From Bernardetiaceae bacterium (GTDB lineage: Bacteria > Bacteroidota > Bacteroidia > Cytophagales > Bernardetiaceae), in NCBI GenBank assembly GCA_020832465.1, contig JAFIER010000079.1, forward strand, positions 1 to 39,120: DNA of 39,120 nucleotides, written 5' to 3'. The position numbers were made by a program, and so were the translations under genes. How positions within the stretch are numbered: the stretch's first letter is position 1; every line of letters begins with the position of its first letter. A model generated the notes under the pieces. That model had not been told where the DNA came from, ran no database searches, and worked only from the letters and a program-made list of their open reading frames with translations. Positions 4,813-30,985 of the stretch are shown in pieces.

Positions 4813-5784
4813 TTATATTTTGTCAGAATGTTTGATTTCGCTTACAAATTTAATATTTCGCTTAAGCCCTTCGAACTTTGTGCGGCGTAGTGGTGAGCCT
4901 TCAAAAAGTTGGTTAAACACTTCTTCTGTAATTTCCTGCCAGTCTGTTTTATTCATTTTTTGTAGCGCCTCTTTGGGTAAAAAAGCGGGTTCTTGATGGG
5001 GTTTGCTACGCCTATTCCAAGGGCATACATCTTGGCAGATATCACATCCAAATATCCAGTTTTCGAATTTTCCTTTTACATTGGTGGGAATTTCGTCTTT
5101 GAGTTCTATTGTAAAATAAGAAATACATCGGCTTGCATCTACGACATATGGCTCTGTAATGGCATTCGTAGGGCAGGCCTCTAAGCATCTTGTGCAGCTC
5201 CCACAATAGTCTCGCATTGGGTTGTTGTCATACTCGAGCTCGAGGTCTGAAATAAGCTCAGCGATAAAAAAAAAGCTACCTTGCTTAGGGTTAATAGCTA
5301 AGGAGTTTTTGCCCTGCCAAGCAATTCCGCCACGCACTGCCCAGATTTTATCCATAACTGGCGCAGAATCTACAAAAGCGCGTCCTTGAAAATCGCCTAC
5401 GATATCTTTGAGCCAAAAAACAAGTTTTTTGAGTTTTTTTTTCAATACTCTATGGTAATCTTTTCCATAGGCATATTTTGAGATTTTATAGCCATCTTGC
5501 TGATGCAAAATTTCTTCTTTGGGCGGGGCATAATTATACAGCAAAGAAACTACTGATTTAGCACCCTCTACGAGTTTGCGTGGGTCTATGCGTTTATCAA
5601 AATAATTTTCCATCCACTGCATTTCGCCGTGCTTTCCTTGATTGAGCCATAGCTCAAGCTTACGCGCTTCTTCGTCAAGGGCTTGCGCTCTTGAAATACC
5701 ACAAAAATCAAAACCCAACTCATGGGCTTTTTCTTTAATCTGCTCGCTAAGGATTTGTTTGTGGATAGGATTTGCCATATTCAT
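4813..5784 (-). CDS. queG: Epoxyqueuosine reductase (QueG)
   Basis: This cobalamin- and Fe-S-dependent enzyme carries out the last step of queuosine synthesis, reducing epoxyqueuosine in tRNA. The 323 residues contain the QueG-specific block RAFVDSAPVMDK (135-146, with the conserved Asp139), and two ferredoxin-like sets: C194-x2-C197-x2-C200-x3-C204 and C220, C247-x2-C250-x3-C254. The motif CGSCTRCLEACPTNAI is characteristic. The length fits the short form without HEAT repeats. Translation may start at 5784 or at M3 (5778). A terminator hairpin separates it from the upstream 660-residue gene. Confidence 0.96.
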   Translation of the reverse strand: MNMANPIHKQILSEQIKEKAHELGFDFCGISRAQALDEEARKLELWLNQGKHGEMQWMENYFDKRIDPRKLVEGAKSVVSLLYNYAPPKEEILHQQDGYKISKYAYGKDYHRVLKKKLKKLVFWLKDIVGDFQGRAFVDSAPVMDKIWAVRGGIAWQGKNSLAINPKQGSFFFIAELISDLELEYDNNPMRDYCGSCTRCLEACPTNAITEPYVVDASRCISYFTIELKDEIPTNVKGKFENWIFGCDICQDVCPWNRRSKPHQEPAFLPKEALQKMNKTDWQEITEEVFNQLFEGSPLRRTKFEGLKRNIKFVSEIKHSDKI

Positions 5785-5810: not shown

Positions 5811-5855
5811 GGTTTTTAAAACCGTGCTATCGGAAAAGCCACCCTGATAGCACGG
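5811..5855 (-). terminator. Terminator of the 660-residue gene
   Basis: CCGTGCTATC (5822-5831) pairs with GATAGCACGG (5846-5855), a 10-bp stem. On the minus strand it is followed by a short T-run within GGTTTTTAAAACC (5811-5823). It lies between the stop at 5871 and queG. The GGTTTTTAAAACCGTGCT piece resembles a hairpin at 21482-21500. Confidence 0.65.
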
Positions 5856-5870
5856 CATGCCCAACTTTTT

Positions 5871-7853
5871 TTATAACCAGCGGTACTCTTTTCCCCAGCT
5901 CTCCTGTGCCATTTTTTTGATATTTGCAATCGTTTCTGTAGGAATTTCTACCTCTTCGTTATTGGCTCTTTTGTGGTAGTGATAAGCATAAAGCCGAGAT
6001 ACAAACTCGTGAAAATATACAGATGACTCGCCCTCTATTTCGCCATTTCCACTGACGGAAGGCTTAATGCCTTGCCCCCAATCTTGCCGTCCTTCGTTGT
6101 TAGGATTAAAGAAATAGGCGCGTACTTTGCCTTCGGGGTCTTTATCTATACGCTGTAGCGAAACGGCATGAAAACCTAAAAGATTAGCACTTGATGTAGT
6201 AATAAAAATACCGACGGGATTGGGATAGACTAAATTAAGCCCACCGTTATAATCAGGGTGATGCGTAGAGTAAAAATTACGTACAAACTCTTCGTAGTTT
6301 ACAATAGCTTGACTTAAGGGTTCGAAGGCATAGGCAAATCCTATGGGTATCCATTGACCGTATAGGGCTGGATTGACCCATTTGTGAGGGTCTGCTCCGC
6401 GCAGAGCGACAAGCCCCATAAGGTGGTTATAAATTCTATCTATGTGTGGCACAAGCACAAGTGAGACTGAGTCGAGCTTTAAGTCAAGATTTTTCACTAA
6501 GCCTTTTTCCAAGAAATTGGCTTGAATGAGCTTACCTTCGAAGCGCATTTCTATGTTGTCATTGAGTGCGGCAGATATGATATAATTAAGCAATTTGCCC
6601 GGTGCGTGCTGGCTCCAGAGGCTAATCCCCCTTGCAGTTTGGCACGTAGGATTAAGCCCCTGCCCTATACCGAGCGGTAAGCCTAACACTAAGATTGTAT
6701 CAGCTAAAAGTAAATTTTTAGCACTGATAACGCCCTCTCGATAAAATTTTGAAAATTTAAAACCCGCAAGCAATCGTTTTTCTACAAAAGGGTGCAACTT
6801 AATGCCTATGACTCGCTCAAGTCCACTGACTACAGGCTGGCGTGCAAGTAGCCCGCGATTCAATATCCGATTAAGCCCATAAACGCTTTGACGGGTTTCG
6901 GCATATACGACAAGTTTGATAAGCCTTCGTACAAAAGGTAAGTGTTTTTTTAGGTTTTCCCTACCAGTAGGACTTAGCTTGAGAGCTATGGGTAGTAAAT
7001 CTACCTCCCTGCGCTCTATTTCTCTGACTAAATAAGTGTGATATATAGATACGATGCCTGTATCTGCCATATTTTGAGCAAAAAGTTCGGCGTGTGCGCG
7101 CATTTGCTCTTTGCTTGCTGTGGTCAGAAACTCTTCATAGACTTCGATGGGTTTATCTCTAAACATAGGTTCATCGAGTCCGTAATGCGCTTTGACGTAC
7201 TTTTTAAGTTGCATATCTATGCGACTATTTGCAAGCTCAAAATTTTGATGTATGTGCTCTATAATTTCAATAGCCCTATCAACGACAATAGGACGTTGCG
7301 CACTGACATTTTTGAGCTCCTCGAGTAGGGGCTGCTTGAGCAAATCTTTGGATACAAAATCTGTAATAAAAGCAAAAAGGTTGTGCCCTCTTTTTATTTT
7401 TTCAGGATAAGTACGGCTAAACTCATTTTCTACGGGAAAGAGAAAATTCAAATTATGCACAAGGCAACGCTTCAGAAAATCTTTTGCTTCTTGCTGTGTA
7501 AATTTTGTATGGCTATATTTTCCTTCTGCAATAGCCAAAATGCGCAATTCGCTCAGCATTTCGATAGCTACTGAAGGCTTATCATCACTTTGAAGAGTCC
7601 CAGCAACTAAGGCTGCCGAGAGGCGTTGGGGGTGTGCCCAGGGTGTATCTTCAAAAATACCGCCTGTAATGAGTGAGCCTATTTTGTCATACAAAATAGA
7701 AAAATTGGCTTTATCTACCGCCAAAGCCAATACATTATCTAAAACTTGAACTTTATGATTGTACTTAGCAAAATCTTGTGCCGCTACGAGTTCCTCTACG
7801 TTTTTTTCAAACTGCTGAATAACTTCCGAAACAGCCGATTCTAATTGATTCAT
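5871..7853 (-). CDS. Conserved-looking unknown protein with papain-like residue order
   Basis: I do not recognise a named family. The 660 residues lack a signal peptide and clear membrane helices, so it is probably cytoplasmic. Residues 1-380 look helical. The C-terminal part has GQGLNPTCQTARG (Gln398, Cys404), then GFHAVSL (His562) and YFFNPNNEG (Asn583). A Gln six residues before Cys, then His and Asn, is the order and near-spacing of papain-fold cysteine peptidases and related transferases; I infer a thiol active site. D591 in RQDWGQG could be an alternative to Asn583. The neighbours, queG and a TerC protein, do not suggest a role. The translation start is the only ATG near the 5' end. Confidence 0.8.
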   Translation of the reverse strand: MNQLESAVSEVIQQFEKNVEELVAAQDFAKYNHKVQVLDNVLALAVDKANFSILYDKIGSLITGGIFEDTPWAHPQRLSAALVAGTLQSDDKPSVAIEMLSELRILAIAEGKYSHTKFTQQEAKDFLKRCLVHNLNFLFPVENEFSRTYPEKIKRGHNLFAFITDFVSKDLLKQPLLEELKNVSAQRPIVVDRAIEIIEHIHQNFELANSRIDMQLKKYVKAHYGLDEPMFRDKPIEVYEEFLTTASKEQMRAHAELFAQNMADTGIVSIYHTYLVREIERREVDLLPIALKLSPTGRENLKKHLPFVRRLIKLVVYAETRQSVYGLNRILNRGLLARQPVVSGLERVIGIKLHPFVEKRLLAGFKFSKFYREGVISAKNLLLADTILVLGLPLGIGQGLNPTCQTARGISLWSQHAPGKLLNYIISAALNDNIEMRFEGKLIQANFLEKGLVKNLDLKLDSVSLVLVPHIDRIYNHLMGLVALRGADPHKWVNPALYGQWIPIGFAYAFEPLSQAIVNYEEFVRNFYSTHHPDYNGGLNLVYPNPVGIFITTSSANLLGFHAVSLQRIDKDPEGKVRAYFFNPNNEGRQDWGQGIKPSVSGNGEIEGESSVYFHEFVSRLYAYHYHKRANNEEVEIPTETIANIKKMAQESWGKEYRWL

Positions 7854-8377: not shown

Positions 8378-9466
8378 TTAGTTATTTGATTCATCAGGAA
8401 GGATTTTGTTTTGCTCTTCGTCTTTTTTTGGAAAAACTAAGGATAATACAATGCTTACTGTCAATATGCCTAAAATTACAAAAAGCGAGTAGTGAGACTT
8501 AAAACCAATGCTAAATAGCCAACTATGGAATATCATTTTGAAGCCTATAAAAACAAGCAAAAAGGAAAGTCCGACTTTTAGAAAACGAAAAAGGTGCATC
8601 ACGCGCGCTAAGAAAAAGAACATAGACCGCAAGCCCATAATCGCAAAAATATTCGAAAAGAAAACAATATAAGGGTCAATAGTAACCGAAAAAACAGCGG
8701 GTATGGAATCTACGGCAAAAATCAAATCTGTAAATTCTATAATCAAAACAACTACAAAAAGAGGCGTAAGCATAAAGCGTCCGTTTCTCATAATAAAAAA
8801 GTTTTCGCCTACATAACGAGGGAAAACAGCAAAATAACGAGAAACTAAGCGTACTACGGGGTGTGATTCTGTATTGATACTTTCCTCATCATTATCAAAA
8901 AGCATCTTAACCCCTGAAAAAAGAAGAAATGCACCAAAAATATAAATAACCCAATCAAAACTTTGCACTAATGCCGAGCCAAGGAAAATAAAAATAAAAC
9001 GCATAACAACTGCGCCAAGAATCCCCCATAGAAGTACTGTTTTGTAATACTTCTCGGGTACGGAAAAGGAGGTAAAAATCAGAATAATGACAAAAATATT
9101 ATCTACAGAGAGCGAGTATTCTATCAAATAACCTGTAATAAATTCTAATGCCATATTTTGACGGTAGCTATGCAGGCTCTCTTCAAAATTTTTAGGATTA
9201 AAAACAACTGAATCTTTATCGTCTAAGTAGAGATTGGCAACCTCAAGTAACCTTTCATAGCTATCAATACCGTGGATATGATGCCCGTGGTATAAAATAA
9301 CAAAATACAGACAAATAGCCAAACTTACCCATACACCACTCCAAATAGCAGCTTCTTTGAAAGAAACGATATGCTTTTTTTTGCTAAACACGCCTAAATC
9401 AATGGCGAGCATTAAAAAAATAAAGCAAAGAAAACCCGTAAAAAATAGTATTTCGTTTAAGCCCAT
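8378..9466 (-). CDS. TerC/Alx-family integral membrane protein
   Basis: The 362-residue protein of about nine hydrophobic helices carries the two TerC signature acidic motifs, EYSLSVDN (116-123) and EFTDLIFAVDSIPA (244-257), whose aspartates and glutamates are thought to handle metal ions. Members include tellurite-resistance TerC and Alx, linked to manganese export. It is longer than E. coli Alx because of a 40-residue loop after the second helix that holds a histidine cluster (H60, H62, H63, H65) and acidic residues, which might bind metal. I saw no yybP-ykoY riboswitch in its leader. It stands alone, with non-coding repeats on both sides. Confidence 0.92.
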   Translation of the reverse strand: MGLNEILFFTGFLCFIFLMLAIDLGVFSKKKHIVSFKEAAIWSGVWVSLAICLYFVILYHGHHIHGIDSYERLLEVANLYLDDKDSVVFNPKNFEESLHSYRQNMALEFITGYLIEYSLSVDNIFVIILIFTSFSVPEKYYKTVLLWGILGAVVMRFIFIFLGSALVQSFDWVIYIFGAFLLFSGVKMLFDNDEESINTESHPVVRLVSRYFAVFPRYVGENFFIMRNGRFMLTPLFVVVLIIEFTDLIFAVDSIPAVFSVTIDPYIVFFSNIFAIMGLRSMFFFLARVMHLFRFLKVGLSFLLVFIGFKMIFHSWLFSIGFKSHYSLFVILGILTVSIVLSLVFPKKDEEQNKILPDESNN

Positions 9467-23394: not shown

Positions 23395-25617
23395 TCAAAA
23401 TATTTTACTTTGTCCTTCTTTTTTAAGCTGCCATGCCTCCTCGCTTGTACGCTCGGCGATGTCTTCCAGTACATTCAAAATCGTTTGATTTTCGGGCGTA
23501 ATGCCATTTTTGAGCAGCGGCATAATATGCAATACAATTTCATCAAAAGTAGGAGCTTTGCTTTCGCGTTCCATACGGCGCAAATAAGAAATCAAATAAT
23601 AACGCACTCGCAAATCCAAATCAATATGCGTTTTGAACTTCGTATCTTTGCGTAAGCTAAAAACTTCGGACTGCTCGTCGTAGTCAAAAGTATCTAACAA
23701 AAAAGGCGTAAGGTCTGAATATTCTTTTTTCAATAAATCTAAAAAACCGAGCTCTAAGCCTTTGATTATCAACTCATCATTGATTTGCTCGAGCGTTGCG
23801 CCATTGTTCTGTGCAATTACGCCTTCGCAAGTTTGAATGATAATATCGCCAATATCCATACCCAGAGCCGCTTTCATGATGTACTTGGGCTTGCGCACTT
23901 TTTTGAAATTGATTATCAACTGACCCGCCAAAACTGTAAAAGGATTCTGACGCTTCTTAAAACTCGTCTGCCCATTAGATTGCTTGACCGCACCCGCATA
24001 TTCGAAACCGCAACGCTCGGCAGTCTCGACAATTAAATGCCAAAATTCTGGGTCTTTGTGTGCAAATACAAAAGACATCCACCTATCGAATTTCAAAACC
24101 CGATACATCTCCTCGATAGACTGCGATATGAGCTCATTGTACTCATCTTTACTTTTATTGCGCTCACCACCCTCGATAGCCTCCGCTTCATAATCCGCAT
24201 CGCTCACTTCCAAATCCAACCAAGCATTCCACATCGTCGATAAGTCCAAATACGGTATCTTTTTGCCATAAGGCGGGTCAGTATAAATATAATCCACACT
24301 CTCATCGGCTACAAAATCCAAATTTGTGGCAGAGCCTTTGCGAACCTCCACCTCTTTAATGTGATTGTGAAGCGTTAATTCTGATAACTCTTTTTTTGCA
24401 TTGATGACTTTTTTAATTTTTGTTTCAAAAATATGCATTAGCTCCAAATCACCGGGTTTCGGAGCTATTCTATATCTGTAATATCTAAAAACAGCACTAT
24501 CCCCACCGCCTGTACTTTTGGTATAATGAAATGTTTGGTTGAATTTATTTACACTACTCGAGAACGCCAAGAGTAGCGTTTTCTGTATATTTATATCCTT
24601 TTCATTTTTGATAAGATGCTTGAGAAATGCGAGCTGTGCGAGCTGCTTATCCGAAAAGAGTTGTTCAATAGTCCCTACATCAGAGCCTTTGGGTAGTTTG
24701 AATCCTTTGGGATAGGGATATTTTTTTAGGGCATCTTGTATATCTTTATCGCTTTTTGGTGCTTTTTTTTCAAATTTTTCTTTGATATATTCAAAACTTT
24801 TTTTCAGTTCTGCAATTTTTACGGGTGCGGTTAGTGCATCGACCATAAACACGGACATAGGGTTTAGGTCGAGGTGTATGCCTTTTCTATCCGTAACCAA
24901 GGCTTCTACTGCGGTTACGCCACTTCCACCGAAAGGGTCGAGGACGACATCTCCTGCTTTTGAGAAATTGAGAATATATTCTTGTACGACGTTCCAAGCC
25001 TGTTTGGTAAAATAACCGTGTACGCCAAAATGCCTTTTGGCAGCCTGTTTTCTTACTTTTATTTCACCGAGTAGGGGTTGTTGTAAGTAGTCAAATTGCT
25101 GTTTTTGTTTTTTAGATTTTTTGGCGTGTGGGGTATAGGCAAATTGTTTTCCACTTTGAAAAGAATCAGGGGCAAGGTACTGGCTTAGGTTTTCCCAATG
25201 CTGTGCAATATCTTTGAGTGGAAAAAAAAGTAATGGTTTTTCTTGGTCTTGTCTGAAAAGGATAAATTCTCTGCCATTGCAAAGGGCAAAAAACTTAGTG
25301 CGCACTTCGGGGTGAATGGCATAGGAATATACTTGTTCGATGTGGTCGCTATGGCTAATATTTTCAGTAGGTGATTTGGCATCGAGCACCCATGCGTAAG
25401 CATCTTCGATTTTGAGCAAATAATCGGGAACGAGGTTTACTTTTCGTTTTTTTGAGCCAATTTTCAAAAAGGGGTGTTCGAGGGTTTTGCTTCTGACAAT
25501 TTGCGGCTGTGCATAACCGAGCTGCTGCAATATCGGCAAAATAAGCACTTCTCTAACGCTATCCTCTTTAAAATCGGGAGATTCTAATTGTGCAAAATCA
25601 AAGTTTTCGTATAACAT
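23395..25617 (-). CDS. Fused PD-(D/E)XK nuclease and DNA methyltransferase
   Basis: A single 740-residue polypeptide that seems to join restriction and modification. The N-terminus (about 1-160) resembles the HsdR N-terminal nuclease: RxVLILPIL at 22-30, LVPDYLL with D65, then LDAK (D79, K81). The methyltransferase core follows, with motif I VLDPFGGSGVTA (225-236) and catalytic motif IV TDPPY (446-450), separated by a helical region of about 200 residues that may read DNA. WMSFVFAHKDPEFW (513-526) is typical of N6/N4 amino-methyltransferases. About 160 helical residues end it. I see no helicase. The target sequence is not predictable. A strong hairpin and a 72-residue gene follow. It might be an unusual modification-only enzyme if the nuclease is inactive. 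Confidence 0.87.
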   Translation of the reverse strand: MLYENFDFAQLESPDFKEDSVREVLILPILQQLGYAQPQIVRSKTLEHPFLKIGSKKRKVNLVPDYLLKIEDAYAWVLDAKSPTENISHSDHIEQVYSYAIHPEVRTKFFALCNGREFILFRQDQEKPLLFFPLKDIAQHWENLSQYLAPDSFQSGKQFAYTPHAKKSKKQKQQFDYLQQPLLGEIKVRKQAAKRHFGVHGYFTKQAWNVVQEYILNFSKAGDVVLDPFGGSGVTAVEALVTDRKGIHLDLNPMSVFMVDALTAPVKIAELKKSFEYIKEKFEKKAPKSDKDIQDALKKYPYPKGFKLPKGSDVGTIEQLFSDKQLAQLAFLKHLIKNEKDINIQKTLLLAFSSSVNKFNQTFHYTKSTGGGDSAVFRYYRYRIAPKPGDLELMHIFETKIKKVINAKKELSELTLHNHIKEVEVRKGSATNLDFVADESVDYIYTDPPYGKKIPYLDLSTMWNAWLDLEVSDADYEAEAIEGGERNKSKDEYNELISQSIEEMYRVLKFDRWMSFVFAHKDPEFWHLIVETAERCGFEYAGAVKQSNGQTSFKKRQNPFTVLAGQLIINFKKVRKPKYIMKAALGMDIGDIIIQTCEGVIAQNNGATLEQINDELIIKGLELGFLDLLKKEYSDLTPFLLDTFDYDEQSEVFSLRKDTKFKTHIDLDLRVRYYLISYLRRMERESKAPTFDEIVLHIMPLLKNGITPENQTILNVLEDIAERTSEEAWQLKKEGQSKIF

Positions 25618-25681
25618 GGGTTTTTAAGTCTTAGTTTGTGAAAACAATAATAGCATTTTTTTTTATAATTTCAAAACCCAA

Positions 25682-25772
25682 CAATCCTGATTCAGACAAA
25701 TTTAAATTCAAAAAATCCACGATAGGGATTTTTGAGAAACCTATAAGCAGTCGAAGACCCTACGAGTGGTTC
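25682..25772 (+). repeat. Dispersed repeat, partial unit between defence modules
   Basis: From AATCCTGATTCAGACAAATT to CCCTACGAGTGGTT it matches the 3' three-quarters of the 121-bp unit. It lies in the gap between the divergent methyltransferase and DUF262 genes, and the DUF262 promoter follows immediately. Confidence 0.8.
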
Positions 25773-25785
25773 GCTCTCGGATTAT

Positions 25786-25815
25786 TTTGATTTTGAAGTT
25801 TTTTTTGTATCTTCG
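25786..25815 (+). promoter_or_regulatory. Promoter of the DUF262 operon
   Basis: TTTG (25786-25789), 18 nt, then TATCTTCG (25808-25815), one mismatch from TAnnTTTG. It lies 60 nt before the ATG at 25876 and just downstream of the repeat. Confidence 0.45.
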
Positions 25816-25875
25816 TACAATGCTCAATTGCATTATAAGCCTTACAACACCATATTTTGACATTTTTATAAACGT

Positions 25876-27270
25876 ATGAAAAAAGTCCATTTGATTTTGC
25901 CCGAAATTCAATCCGAATTTAGACTTACTAACGAAGAGAAAAATACTTGGATTTACCGAGATGAAGCAGGCAGCCCCCTCCTCAGTATTACTTCTGAAAC
26001 TGGTGATATTACAGATTTTAAAGTGCTTCAGAAAAGTGGAGAACTCAAATCGGTAAGCGATAAAGATATTTTAGAGTTTTTTTTAGAAAAATATATAGAA
26101 GCGGAGCGAGACTATCAAGAACAAAATGCCTCGGGTATAGAAAATACTGAAGACACCGAAGATAATCCCACAGCCAGTGAAAACCATGTATCGAAGCCCG
26201 ACTTTGACCCCGAGGATATTACGATAAGAAAGCAAGGCTTTACTGTGAGAGAGATTGTACATCATTTAATCGAAGAGCAACGTATAGACTTATCACCTGA
26301 TTTTCAGCGTTATTTTGTGTGGAAGCCCAAAGTCAAAACGGGTTTAATAGAGTCAATCCTATTGCGCATACCCTTACCTATATTTTATTTAGCCGAAAAT
26401 CATGAAGGAATATATCAGGTGGTAGATGGTGTGCAAAGATTGACTACACTTAGAGACTTTTTGAATAATAAATTCAAGCTCAAAGATTTGGAATACCTTA
26501 CGGATTGTGAAGGTAAAACCTTCGAGCAGCTTGCACCTAAATATCAAAGAAGAATTGAAGATACACAGCTCGACTTTAATATCATCTCGGCACGCACATC
26601 GGCGAGTGTAAAAACCGAGATTTTTAAGCGATTAAACTTAGGCGGGAAGCCGCTCAATAGGCAGGAAATCCGAAATAGCCTATCTACAAAAAAGATTCGC
26701 GACTTGATTAGAGGCATGGCATCTTCTGAAGCGTTCATTACGGCTACTAATGGGAGTATAAAACCCTTGCGTATGGAAGACCAAGAGTTGGTTATGCGTT
26801 TTGTGGGCTTTTATTTAGCCAAAATTGAGAAAATAGTTACTTACAAAGGCGAAATGGACTCGTTTTTAGATGATGTTTTGGAGCAGCTAAGTCTCCGAGA
26901 CAGTACAATAGATTTTGAAAAAATACGCCAAGAGTTTGCATACAGTATGCAAAATGTGCATTATTTGTTCGGTTCTTATGCTTTTCGCAAAATCTTACCT
27001 AAACATATAGAGAAGCAATACACCCCCCCTATCAATAAGTCCTTATTCACGGCATGGTCGGTGTTACTTTCGCAATATAGCCCCGAGCAGGTACAGGCTT
27101 ATCTCAAGCCTAATGCTTTTGTAAATGTTTTGGTCAATAAAATTCAAGAAGATGCGCAGTACTTAGAAGCCCTTTCAGCAGGCACAAATCAGTTAGATAA
27201 ACTCGATTATAGTTTCAAAATTGCTGACGAGCTTATTCAAACTCATCTTAAATCATTGATTCATGCTTAG
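25876..27270 (+). CDS. DUF262 (GmrSD-N/ParB-like) protein
   Basis: The first gene of a three-gene operon. The 464 residues begin with a separate acidic domain (about 1-110), then a DUF262 domain with PDFQRYFVWK (141-150) and the hallmark DGVQR (184-188). DUF262 resembles ParB and is the nucleotide-using half of GmrSD-type, modified-DNA-dependent restriction; no GmrSD DUF1524 HNH domain is seen in the remaining 270 residues, so cleavage would need another protein. The ATG of the next gene lies 8 nt inside its 3' end, so the two are translationally coupled. I infer a defence role from family and setting. Confidence 0.86.
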   Translation: MKKVHLILPEIQSEFRLTNEEKNTWIYRDEAGSPLLSITSETGDITDFKVLQKSGELKSVSDKDILEFFLEKYIEAERDYQEQNASGIENTEDTEDNPTASENHVSKPDFDPEDITIRKQGFTVREIVHHLIEEQRIDLSPDFQRYFVWKPKVKTGLIESILLRIPLPIFYLAENHEGIYQVVDGVQRLTTLRDFLNNKFKLKDLEYLTDCEGKTFEQLAPKYQRRIEDTQLDFNIISARTSASVKTEIFKRLNLGGKPLNRQEIRNSLSTKKIRDLIRGMASSEAFITATNGSIKPLRMEDQELVMRFVGFYLAKIEKIVTYKGEMDSFLDDVLEQLSLRDSTIDFEKIRQEFAYSMQNVHYLFGSYAFRKILPKHIEKQYTPPINKSLFTAWSVLLSQYSPEQVQAYLKPNAFVNVLVNKIQEDAQYLEALSAGTNQLDKLDYSFKIADELIQTHLKSLIHA

Positions 27271-28375
27271 AAAAATGCGAATAAAGCAGTTTAAATGCTT
27301 TTTAGATACAGAAATTAGTTTTGGTAAAATTACAGCCTTAGCGGGCGGAAACGGCGTAGGAAAGTCTTCTGTTGTACAAGGCTTGCTGTTACTCCGTCGC
27401 CTTTATCAAACTTATGAGACAAAAGAAGCTGAATCTATTTCTATTAACGACAAGGAAAAAACTTTTTTAGAATTAGGTTCGACTTCCGAGATTATCAATA
27501 CAAATGCCAAAGATAAAACTTTTTCTTTTGAGCTTTTTGATGATAAAGATGCTGTTGAAATTGCTCATTTTGAGAGTGAGTTAAATAAGCCTCGTAGTTT
27601 GAAAGGTTTATTGAAATCTACTAATGAAAATCGCCTTCCTTTTTATAACGATTTTCATTATCTGAATGCCGAGCGTCTTGGACCTCGTAATACGCAGCAG
27701 CTCACCACACAAAACTTTATTCACGTAGGTTTTCAAGGCGAGTACACAGGGCAAGCCATTGCTGATAGCATGACGCACCGAGTAGATGCCATAAGAAAAC
27801 GGCGTGATACAACAAAGTTTGGAGTTACTATACAAGAGCAAATCGAGGCATGGATGGACTTCATTGTTCCCGATGTGCAGTTCAATGTGCAAGATTATGA
27901 AGCCATAAATCAAGTGCGTATTGGGATAAAAAAATTAGGTGCTGATACGGATTTTTTACATCCCAATAATATTGGATTTGGTATTAGTTATGTATTGCCC
28001 ATTGTTGTTACGGGTTTGATTGCTCAAAAGGGTAGTCTAATTATTATTGAAAATCCTGAGGCACATTTGCACCCCTTTGGACAGTCTCGTATAGGTCAGT
28101 TTTTGGGACACATGGCAGGTGCGGGCTTACAAATTATAGTAGAAACGCATAGCGAACACGTCATAAACGGCATTCGCATCGCAAGTCTCAAAGACCACGT
28201 GAGTTATAAAGACGTAGTTATCAATTTTTTTAGTCAAGAAAAAAACAAACCTCTCAAGGTTATCAAAATCGAACTTAATGAGACTTCTGATTTACAAAAG
28301 TTTCCAAGCGGATTTTTCGACCAAGGGCAACGAGATTTTGCCGAAATTATGCATTACAAAAAACAACGAAAATGA
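27263..28375 (+). CDS. AAA ATPase with a DUF3696-like C-terminus
   Basis: A 370-residue SMC/OLD-like ATPase. The start MLRKMRIKQFKCF leads to Walker A GGNGVGKS (28-35). GFGISYVLPIV (238-248) sits at the signature position, Walker B LIIIENPEAHLHP (259-271) follows, then the switch ETHSEH (294-299). The end, PSGFFDQGQRD (about 348-358), is typical of DUF3696. Such ATPases drive several anti-phage systems. It overlaps the DUF262 gene by 8 nt and the next gene by 4 nt (ATGA), so all are co-translated. M5 at 27275 is a possible alternative start. Confidence 0.88.
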   Translation: MLRKMRIKQFKCFLDTEISFGKITALAGGNGVGKSSVVQGLLLLRRLYQTYETKEAESISINDKEKTFLELGSTSEIINTNAKDKTFSFELFDDKDAVEIAHFESELNKPRSLKGLLKSTNENRLPFYNDFHYLNAERLGPRNTQQLTTQNFIHVGFQGEYTGQAIADSMTHRVDAIRKRRDTTKFGVTIQEQIEAWMDFIVPDVQFNVQDYEAINQVRIGIKKLGADTDFLHPNNIGFGISYVLPIVVTGLIAQKGSLIIIENPEAHLHPFGQSRIGQFLGHMAGAGLQIIVETHSEHVINGIRIASLKDHVSYKDVVINFFSQEKNKPLKVIKIELNETSDLQKFPSGFFDQGQRDFAEIMHYKKQRK

Positions 28376-28581
28376 AAACTAACTTTTTACTTTTCAAAGA
28401 AGCCTTTGCGCTTGATGATTGGTCTTTATTTGTGGATAAGTTTGCTGCGCTCAACGAAGCTATTCTGAAAGCAAAAGATGATAATGAAGATGAGGTGCTA
28501 CTACAAGCAAGTTTATTAGAACTCGAAATATCTAATCATAAGCTGACAAAAAAACTCTACGAAATTATTTACACCGACTAG
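28372..28581 (+). CDS. First part (69 codons) of the third operon gene, ending at an in-frame TAG
   Basis: It overlaps the ATPase stop by ATGA and encodes a 69-residue acidic helical peptide, MKTNFLLFKEAFALDDWSLF to YEIIYTD. The TAG at 28579-28581 is in the same frame as the 240-codon frame that follows; without it one 314-residue protein would result. It may be a separate small protein with a coupled partner, or half of a recently broken gene. Confidence 0.6.
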   Translation: MKTNFLLFKEAFALDDWSLFVDKFAALNEAILKAKDDNEDEVLLQASLLELEISNHKLTKKLYEIIYTD

Positions 28582-28593
28582 GAAACGCTACAG

Positions 28594-29316
28594 TTGCTTA
28601 TTCCTAATATTACGCACGACATCATAGAGCCACTACGTATTATACTGGGCTATGCTCAAAAAAATATTCAGGATTTAGAGCAGTTAGAAAATGCATATCC
28701 CGATAGCTACAATGGCTTGATGGGATTGGAGTTTAAAAACCTTCCTAATATTCCGAAAGAAGTAGCCGTATCTGATGTGCATACTTGGTTTGATTTTCAT
28801 TTTCATAAATACCATCAAAATCCTCAAAACGACTATTTTATTAAATGTTTAGAAAGACTTCAAGGAAACAAATTTAATCCTTACTTTCCAAACTTAGCAT
28901 ATTCTAACGCGCTTATCAGCACTAAACTAAATGCCCAAGAAATATGGCGTTTGTTTTATAAAAGTCAAAAAACAGAGCAAGAGCGCAATCAATATGAAAA
29001 ACTATTTGGTGCGGGCACTAAAATAGCAGTTATCAGAAAAATAGCTAAAAAAATAGCAAAGGCTAACTTATACAAATACGATCCTGATTTGAGTAGGTAT
29101 AACAGCAAAAAGAACACAAACAAAAAAGATACACCGTTTCAAATTTTCAAACAAGGCTATGGAAAAAACTTGATATACCTATCTACAGATTTTGAAAAAG
29201 GAACATTCGAAGTTTGTAATGCCAAAGGTAAACATCAAGGCGAGTATCGTTTTGATGGTATGCTTAACAGTAAAGCGGATAAAAATGGTGGGCATGATAT
29301 TGTACTACAGCTTTAA
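28594..29316 (+). CDS. Second part of the third operon gene, toxin-like C-terminus
   Basis: In frame with the 69-codon part, after one TAG. No ATG or clear ribosome-binding site lies near; a TTG at 28594 is the nearest possible start, so it could be translated only by readthrough or weakly. The 240 residues are helical at first. The C-terminal 60 contain TPFQIFK, then YLSTDFEKGTFEVCNAKGKH, then QGEYRFDG and GGHDIVL, a strand pattern with GKHxGE that resembles colicin E3-like and polymorphic-toxin barrels. I infer a possible RNase or nuclease effector, unproven. The dispersed repeat starts within 10 nt of its stop. Confidence 0.6.
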   Translation: MLIPNITHDIIEPLRIILGYAQKNIQDLEQLENAYPDSYNGLMGLEFKNLPNIPKEVAVSDVHTWFDFHFHKYHQNPQNDYFIKCLERLQGNKFNPYFPNLAYSNALISTKLNAQEIWRLFYKSQKTEQERNQYEKLFGAGTKIAVIRKIAKKIAKANLYKYDPDLSRYNSKKNTNKKDTPFQIFKQGYGKNLIYLSTDFEKGTFEVCNAKGKHQGEYRFDGMLNSKADKNGGHDIVLQL

Positions 29317-29434: not shown

Positions 29435-30985
29435 TCATACAGTATCTACAAAGCAATCACGATATATTTTTTCTATCTGTGCTACTTCTTCGGAGGTAAG
29501 CCGTGCAAATTCTTTTTCACCTGCTCTTTTCGAGAGTTTTCCGTTATTTTGTTTCAAAAAACTAAGCAACAAACTGATTTGCTTGTCAGAGATTGTAAAA
29601 TATTCGCTTATTTTCGTTTTAAAATTGTCGTATTGCATCAAATATTCAACTTCTTGGGGTAGAATTTGCGTAAGCGTATAATCCAAACAATCATACAAAA
29701 ACTCAGCTGCCGCAGTAGCATCAAAATAACGATAAAAATCTATCGTATTATTCAAGACCTCTACATTATGCTGCGCTGTTTCTCTCCATTCAATATGCTC
29801 GAGCAAAGGGTGCGAATGGGCTTCTAAAACCCTTCTATAGGCTGTTATTTTATCCAAAATAGCCGCTGATATAGGGAAAATATTTCCCGTAGGATAAAAC
29901 TTTTTTTCAGCCATGATTTGATGTATCAAATAGCGGTGCAACCGCCCGTTGCCATCTTCAAAAGGGTGTATGAATACGAACCCAAAAGAGAGTGCAGCAG
30001 CACATAATACAGCATCTAAATCATTTTTTACCAGTAATTGATAAGTATCAAAAAAGCCTTGCATAAGCAGCTGTAAATCTTGCCATTTTGCTGAAATATG
30101 TTCGGGTATAGGCATTGCAGTTTCAGGGTCATGCTCGCCTATAAATCCTCCTTTTTGGCGGTATCCGAAGGAAACAAATCTACTTTTTCCGATGATAAGT
30201 TTTTGTAGTGCTACAAGTTCTTGTTCCGAAAGCGGTCTTATTCCCGCTTCTCCAATAGCGCGTCCCCAGCGTGCTATTCTTTGATTTTTAGCACTTTCAC
30301 CCTCGATTGTAAAAGAAGATTTTGAATCTTTGAGCAATAAAAAAGCGGCTGTGCGCGCTCTAATTTGAGGGCTTAAATTTTGAAAATATTTTTCTTTTTG
30401 TGCTTCAAAATCAGCCGCAATATAAGCCTCAAGTTTTGGCGTTCTGTAAATTATAGGACAAAAATTAACCGTTCCGATTAAGTTATTGATAATGCGATGG
30501 CGTATAGATTTTGTGCCTTCTGTGCGTGCAAACTGCTTTTTCTCATCGAGGAGGGCGACGTAGTTACCGCTTTTTAAGTTTTCAATAGGGAGTTTTTGAG
30601 CTGTAAGCCATTCGTATAAAAACCATAGCTTTCGGCTATATTGGCTTAGGGGTTGCTTCTGTATCCAAGCCTCGAGCTCTTCGTGCTGAATTTTTTGAAA
30701 TAGCTTTTTAAAAAAAAGCAAATCTATGCCTTCATATTTGAGTGCAAAAATTAAATGACTTAAAAGCTCTTCTTGAGGCGCATAACGTGGCGTAAAAACT
30801 TGCCATTTTTCGGCATTGTATTTTTTGTGTTTAGAACTAATTACAGACAAGCGTGTAGGCAAAGGCATAGATAGCTCGAGCGCATCTATAACTGCACCAT
30901 AGCCCACTAAAGTACTGTCTGTCTCGGGAGCTTCTCTTCCGTGAAAAACGTTTATTTTTTGTGAAAAACGTTTGTTTTTAGTCAT
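29435..30985 (-). CDS. Fic-domain protein with a self-inhibitory motif
   Basis: The 516 residues carry the Fic active motif HPFEDGNGR (340-348), which transfers AMP or another nucleotide group to proteins. An inhibitory SFTIEG (S224 to G229, fitting S/TxxxE/NG) lies before it within the same chain, so E228 can hold the enzyme off (class II Fic). Residues 1-180 form an extra domain and the C-terminal ~130 residues resemble a winged-helix region. It ends the defence block. The role could be a toxin-like modifier or regulator. Repeated AAACGTTT boxes lie around its start codon. Confidence 0.92.
   Translation of the reverse strand: MTKNKRFSQKINVFHGREAPETDSTLVGYGAVIDALELSMPLPTRLSVISSKHKKYNAEKWQVFTPRYAPQEELLSHLIFALKYEGIDLLFFKKLFQKIQHEELEAWIQKQPLSQYSRKLWFLYEWLTAQKLPIENLKSGNYVALLDEKKQFARTEGTKSIRHRIINNLIGTVNFCPIIYRTPKLEAYIAADFEAQKEKYFQNLSPQIRARTAAFLLLKDSKSSFTIEGESAKNQRIARWGRAIGEAGIRPLSEQELVALQKLIIGKSRFVSFGYRQKGGFIGEHDPETAMPIPEHISAKWQDLQLLMQGFFDTYQLLVKNDLDAVLCAAALSFGFVFIHPFEDGNGRLHRYLIHQIMAEKKFYPTGNIFPISAAILDKITAYRRVLEAHSHPLLEHIEWRETAQHNVEVLNNTIDFYRYFDATAAAEFLYDCLDYTLTQILPQEVEYLMQYDNFKTKISEYFTISDKQISLLLSFLKQNNGKLSKRAGEKEFARLTSEEVAQIEKIYRDCFVDTV

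Follow-up and report, generated by a model that had tools for sequence, protein, structure and literature searches.

A 660-residue protein encoded in a Bernardetiaceae bacterium, here called PAP, belongs to a family with invariant catalytic-type residues, a partner ATP-grasp ligase (GRASP) and gene linkage to ornithine (arg) genes and to acetyltransferases of the GNAT type. We put at roughly one in two the probability that PAP is a thiol acyl-transfer enzyme that helps to make, in the cytoplasm, a dipeptide-like compound derived from ornithine and acetylated, which would probably serve as a compatible solute.

The PAP gene and its predicted catalytic domain

The window analysed is the whole 39,120-nucleotide stretch that contains the PAP gene. 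The 660-residue reading frame of the original prediction was borne out at 5871..7853, on the minus strand (ATG at 7853, stop at 5871-5873), and the plus strand there is stop-rich. Named from a reading of their sequences, its neighbours are presumably a queG-like gene on one side (4813-5784, minus strand) and a TerC-like gene on the other (8378-9466, minus strand). A 10-bp G+C-rich hairpin followed by TTTT, read by eye, lies directly past the PAP stop codon (5822..5855, minus strand); since it is terminator-like, PAP is probably transcribed separately from the queG-like gene. Elsewhere in the window, what we take to be a 740-residue DNA-methylase-like ORF (minus strand) faces DUF262-like, AAA-ATPase-like and 240-residue ORFs (plus strand), and this region (23395-29316) has the appearance of an island for restriction or defence; at 29435-30985 (minus strand) lies a 516-residue protein with what is presumably a Fic-type motif (HPFEDGNGR). 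A defence role was considered for PAP and dropped.

The four residues proposed as a papain-like set stand where they had been placed, with Q398 and C404 in a Q-x5-C arrangement (QGLNPTC, 6642..6662), H562 in GFHAVSL (codon 6168..6170) and N583 in YFFNPN (codon 6105..6107), all on the minus strand. By the papain order they would act as oxyanion Gln, nucleophile Cys, general base and third catalytic residue, respectively. The conservation check that had been proposed for them gave a clear answer: the four residues, which follow one another in the order of clan CA, are identical in 95/95 aligned family ORFs. This alignment comprises P0001 and all family ORFs of the loci, omitting L001 as a duplicate of P0001, and nine of its 95 sequences come from loci that already contribute another copy. 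The family has a single conserved cysteine in the 95 sequences, C404, and H490 and H625 are likewise invariant (95/95). Shuffling the protein 2000 times produced a Q-x5-C with H and N further on in 150 cases, so that the Gln-Cys-His-Asn order alone is weak evidence and it is the conservation that carries the papain-like assignment. At residue 254 (7092-7094), the window protein has His, while 94/95 family sequences have Glu.

An AlphaFold model built with 64 aligned sequences (mean pLDDT 92.4, pTM 0.89) has about 365 helical N-terminal residues and then a separate domain, in which C404 opens a helix (404-416), H562 lies in a strand (558-571) and N583 comes right after another (577-582); this predicted placement matches papain-like folds. 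The all-helical region, drawn from the secondary structure of the model and from invariant columns in the 64 sequences, spans approximately residues 1-377 (6723..7853, minus strand) and includes the invariant positions W72, S101, R104, A123, Q186, R187, Y239 and G266. It had been said to resemble nothing known, and the helical N-terminal half is still without a convincing known relative. For residues 359-626, approximately the papain-like catalytic region (5976..6779, minus strand), the top solved matches in VIA were the protease cores of calpains (best Z 6.9, with 206 residues aligned at rmsd 4.2 and 11% identity). Such cores occupied 18 of the first 24 rows, at Z 5.8 to 6.9 over about 200-220 residues, which is below the trust level of 8, where a match may reflect a common arrangement. 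No transglutaminase, C39 or BtrH-like chain was among the VIA matches listed, and a Foldseek search of the PDB with the whole model gave mostly helical-repeat rows (best E 0.07), with no papain-like chain in 50 rows. Taken together, the residue order, the conservation, the secondary structure of the model and the calpain match make a papain-like fold likely.

PAP matched no Pfam family at E<=10 (calpain PF00648 and BtrH_N included), no NCBIfam family, no PDB sequence credibly and nothing in PHROGs and PADLOC, and its 64 family members gave stray matches only against Pfam. It is a member of an unnamed family, covered by no curated model searched. The translation is without a visible hydrophobic N-terminal stretch, in agreement with the predicted lack of a signal peptide. 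Hence, of the earlier idea of a cytoplasmic thiol peptidase, amidase or transglutaminase-like enzyme, the cytoplasmic thiol enzyme of papain order stood; the choice of enzyme, which that prediction had left open, is narrowed by the gene context, with an amino-acid ligase alongside, toward small-molecule amide chemistry.

Distribution of the family and its pairing with GRASP

Single-sequence scans of genome contigs and viral contigs found no PAP relative, nor was any found in phages; plasmids gave one, on a Halomonas replicon. In the genome search PAP was present in 2/59, the window's own genome counted. A three-row alignment scan of genome contigs gave at least 588 related stretches, which makes the operon widespread. 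Of these, the 80 best were taken for study, and locus counts are given over 86 loci. By record title, the carriers belong to Bacillota, Bacteroidota, Balneolia, Rhodothermaceae, Gemmatimonadetes, Polyangia and Planctomycetota. Among the matches listed, many carriers bear the names of halophiles or alkaliphiles, an impression formed without a control; against a link to salt, the names of several carriers (Neobacillus terrae, Peribacillus) point to soil. In a quick tree built from 80 sequences, the window's PAP forms a pair (SH-aLRT 100) with that of a Cyclobacteriaceae bin (L004), close to the base of the group outside Bacillota. Since the same tree places L012 (Chryseobacterium title) within Bacillota and L036 (Rickettsiales title) next to Marinoscillum, these two are probably mislabelled or mis-binned. 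A second, shorter PAP (about 610-630 residues) with the four catalytic residues kept lies downstream in the Bacillota-type loci L005, L012, L028, L041, L063, L068, L072, L080 and L081. In the Halomonas PAP (L003:11800-12061), similarity is lost past approximately query residue 612 while the ORF continues, which is a probable frameshift in the record or the gene.

In the relatives, the gene next upstream of PAP encodes the ATP-grasp protein GRASP, of about 408 residues, which tblastn located within the fetched DNA of 81/86 loci. The five loci without it are the window locus, two contigs that start at PAP (L006, L035) and two extra copies (L023, L027), in whose genomes the other PAP copy does have GRASP; at L070, GRASP is upstream of PAP on the opposite strand. 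The gaps between the two genes are mostly <120 bases, and six pairs overlap, by 26 or 17 bases in four cases and by 4 in the other two. PAP was found in 4/395 Bacteroidota genomes, the host included, and in 9/299 Bacilli genomes, the centre genome G444 included. Both genes were present in 12/694 genomes (4/395 Bacteroidota, 8/299 Bacilli), and no genome among the 395 Bacteroidota and 299 Bacilli had GRASP only. The ninth PAP-bearing Bacilli genome holds a decayed PAP (L103, G558:C10:22045-23409, profile positions 200-654, with an internal TAG) and no GRASP, so that loss of one gene seems to go with loss of the other. Across 3160 pairs, which are non-independent through kinship, the identities of PAP correlate with those of GRASP (r 0.87).

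In the window's genome PAP, GRASP and the alanine-racemase paralogue ALR lie on three separate contigs, with GRASP at C149:26695-27918 (82% identical to the L004 GRASP) and ALR at C246:8208-9362 (72% identity in the L004 comparison). Because the host has scattered these genes, neither the partnership with GRASP nor the pathway could be seen from the window alone.

The strictness of the pairing bears on whether PAP makes or breaks the product. Two synthetic enzymes in one operon would fit no better than a ligase with a peptidase, and the papain-type active site would suit a breakdown arm, in which PAP is a thiol peptidase or amidase that hydrolyses the GRASP product, for example after a drop in salinity, with synthesis and recycling in one operon. 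However, the PAP-GRASP tie is equally strict both ways and PAP is often doubled in Bacillota loci, which is less expected of a recycling enzyme, and we consider a breakdown role unlikely.

The best solved relatives of GRASP are L-amino-acid ligases, both by profile (4wd3, E 1e-11) and by fold (4wd3, 3vot, 3vmm); it is an ATP-grasp protein closest in fold to amino-acid ligases, and its score against Pfam ATP-grasp_4 (25.1 bits) is slightly below the cut-off of 27. Judged by sequence and model, GRASP is most like L-amino-acid (dipeptide) ligases, and a ligase activity is predicted. Ligase-peptidase pairs for protein tags are known, and this precedent, together with a weak match of 1/64 PAP members to the spore transglutaminase family TGL (E 0.012), would be in line with GRASP and PAP adding and removing, or cross-linking, an amino-acid tag on proteins, as a ligase with a deconjugase or a transglutaminase. 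We regard this as very improbable, since GRASP resembles free amino-acid ligases, genes for ornithine synthesis and small-molecule acetyltransferases are linked to the pair, and no candidate protein substrate was seen nearby.

Ornithine, acetyltransferase and racemase genes near PAP

Genes at the loci were counted by tblastn; long antisense ORFs hide genes in the G+C-rich loci. argC was present in 15/86 loci, argB in 13/86 and argJ in 8/86, the union being 17/86 (L002, L030, L031, L036, L037, L038, L040, L048, L053, L060, L062, L069, L070, L072, L074, L080 and L081); in the other 69/86, some with flanks of only 1.5 kb, tblastn did not find argC, argJ or argB. Rossellomorea-type loci also have class-III aminotransferases, several kb away from PAP, which might be argD; these were excluded from the arg counts. 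For each of the ten neighbour proteins scanned, one or more of the arg models (argC, argB, argJ or argG) gave a score above its cut-off; the argJ and argD of L072 exceeded their family cut-offs, and the cut argB of L002 was below its own. The gene order is argB-argD-argC-argJ-GRASP-PAP-ALR at L062, GRASP-PAP-argC-argJ-argB-argD-second PAP at L072, argC-argJ-GNAT-GRASP-PAP at L074 and argC-GNAT-GRASP-PAP at L040, and in the Cyclobacterium loci the arg genes are divergent. Such varied arrangements across phyla suggest a repeated functional tie of the arg genes with GRASP-PAP. In three Bacillota genomes (G446, G746, G747), argJ is doubled, with one copy in the PAP operon. The other nine genomes of the argJ search have one argJ in eight cases and none, at E<=1e-10, in Planococcus chinensis (G444). 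As the Bacteroidota tested have a single argJ, the arg linkage there may reflect shared regulation. In Marinoscillum, a protein of approximately 272 residues is encoded between the racemase and argB (L037:13143-13958, L031:6947-7771), and its L037 copy had no Pfam or NCBIfam match.

Four types of GNAT, with no matches between types at E 1e-6 within the PAP loci, occur near the PAP operon, in 20, 3, 3 and 6 loci (32/86 in total). None of the four was found by tblastn in 54/86 loci, some of which have flanks of only 1.5 kb, and the six-locus type may, in Cyclobacterium, belong to the arginine cluster. One type, found in Halobacillus, Salibacterium and Herbivorax, exceeds the AblB cut-off (TIGR03827, 262, 244 and 240 bits against 205 at L079, L049 and L052). 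The PAP-linked AblBs are 44-47% identical mutually and 26-32% identical to three AblBs of AblA-bearing genomes, a comparison from which a fourth AblB (L118) was left out, and on these sequence identities they are a separate, divergent branch. AblB was absent in 8/14 genomes searched, the window's included, and AblA was above cut-off in 4/14. No AblA above cut-off was found in G445 and G753, both of which have AblB beside GRASP-PAP, and in Herbivorax G754, AblA is present together with two AblBs, of which one lies near AblA and the other near PAP. An AblB without AblA would fit the acetylation of ornithine or lysine rather than of beta-lysine.

Planococcus citreus is among the organisms with N-delta-acetylornithine, and it is a PAP carrier (L047). 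N-delta-acetylornithine and N-epsilon-acetyllysine have both been reported from Halobacillus halophilus (PMC2412884). A GNAT alone could yield N-delta-acetylornithine, so the product of PAP and GRASP must be something more, if our reading is right.

A GNAT, an ATP-grasp enzyme and a third amide-handling enzyme thus recur in PAP loci, and in the synthesis of N-acetylglutaminylglutamine amide (NAGGN), AsnO plays the part analogous to the third. By this analogy PAP might be a papain-fold glutaminase or amidotransferase that gives ammonia to GRASP, leading to an amino-acid or dipeptide amide. We know of no glutamine amidotransferase with a papain-like fold, which weighs against this proposal, and its probability appears low to us. 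The kind of product it calls for does have a precedent, uncharged amidated peptides being a known type of solute (PMC1224877).

ALR is a neighbour in 34/86 loci, on which ORF clustering and tblastn agree, and it was not seen in the Bacillota loci listed. It reaches 291 bits with the alr model TIGR00492 (cut-off 168). Alanine racemases usually have a G-x-x-x-MD stretch near the active site, which ALR lacks: its stretch is G[LS][IV]NMN in 34/34 sequences (33 loci and the unlinked copy of the host), whereas the MurF-fused racemase of the host keeps GNVCMD. The altered motif suggests a dedicated enzyme with a changed substrate choice. The third alanine-racemase-like gene of the host (G000:C202:11670-12803, L090) has GVVNMN and is paralogous to the operon-type racemase. 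In 20 sources searched with Rfam, c-di-AMP riboswitches were present in two (L012:14274-14414 and L041:11694-11841), ahead of potassium-uptake-like genes and 2.3 and 4.8 kb beyond the first PAP stop codon; riboswitch control of the operon was rejected, as none lies ahead of GRASP in the 20 sources.

No recurring exporter or self-resistance gene was seen in the PAP neighbour list, on part of which the family models were run, and in the absence of a recurring exporter the product probably stays inside the cell. Clusters for bacilysin and butirosin contain a dipeptide ligase, a racemase and papain-type enzymes, and the likeness in enzyme kinds would be expected if the PAP gene set made a secreted, peptide-like secondary metabolite instead of a solute. 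Here, however, arg genes recur in place of an exporter or self-resistance gene, which leaves secretion with a slim chance.

The proposed pathway and its comparison with known systems

The pathway that we infer, with its substrate, its product, an osmotic role linked to salt, and transfer over hydrolysis by PAP, would follow the fullest operons, which run from argC/argJ/argB/argD through GNAT and GRASP to PAP, plus ALR in Bacteroidota-type loci. The arg enzymes would supply ornithine, whose side-chain amine GNAT would acetylate to yield N-delta-acetylornithine or something similar. GRASP would couple the acetylated product to a second amino acid, possibly one racemised by ALR. An acyl-enzyme at Cys404 of PAP would then hand the acyl group to an amine or to ammonia, by transfer, cyclisation or amidation, and the neutral, dipeptide-like product would remain intracellular and probably act as a compatible solute. 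A broader claim, that PAP builds amide bonds as an acyltransferase or amidotransferase and so leads to an undescribed acetyl-ornithine solute, possibly with a D-amino acid, across Bacillota, Bacteroidota, Myxococcota and other phyla, is tentative, and we would not presume it. If PAP does make an amide bond, a synthetic role would be added to a fold known mainly for proteases. In the literature, with subscription papers mostly outside coverage, we found neither a precedent for the PAP-GRASP gene set nor a bacterial biosynthesis gene set for N-delta-acetylornithine, and the operon offers a testable lead on ornithine-derived solutes of this kind.

Among known systems, the calpain and papain C1-C2 cores of clan CA share with PAP the Gln-Cys-His-Asn order and the Gln-Cys spacing, and they are the best solved matches for residues 359-626. 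PAP differs from them in its low similarity (11% identity, Z 6.9), its lack of a Pfam model, its helical N-terminus of approximately 365 residues and its linkage to biosynthesis genes. The gene roles of NAGGN synthesis are those of an acetyltransferase, an ATP-grasp ligase and AsnO. In its logic, this route to a capped dipeptide solute (PMC1224877), with an acetyltransferase, an ATP-grasp ligase and a third enzyme that handles amides, resembles the PAP set; the PAP loci differ in that PAP is not an AsnO, the GNAT has a gene of its own and arg genes are linked. From the AblA/AblB pathway for N-epsilon-acetyl-beta-lysine, an AblB-family acetyltransferase is found beside GRASP-PAP in three loci, but no AblA exceeds the cut-off in two of the three such genomes and the PAP-linked AblBs branch apart.

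In butirosin synthesis, BtrJ is an ATP-grasp enzyme and BtrK a fold-III PLP enzyme. With BtrH, the papain-like acyltransferase of that pathway (PMC10318531), they bring together the three enzyme folds that are also combined here; in contrast, no carrier-protein or aminoglycoside genes were seen at the PAP loci, and PAP is without a sequence match to BtrH_N. Finally, the L-amino-acid ligases RizA, BL00235 and BacD are the best solved relatives of GRASP by profile and fold, but GRASP is only 14-18% identical to them in the fold-search rows and, in the genomes sampled, occurs only alongside PAP.
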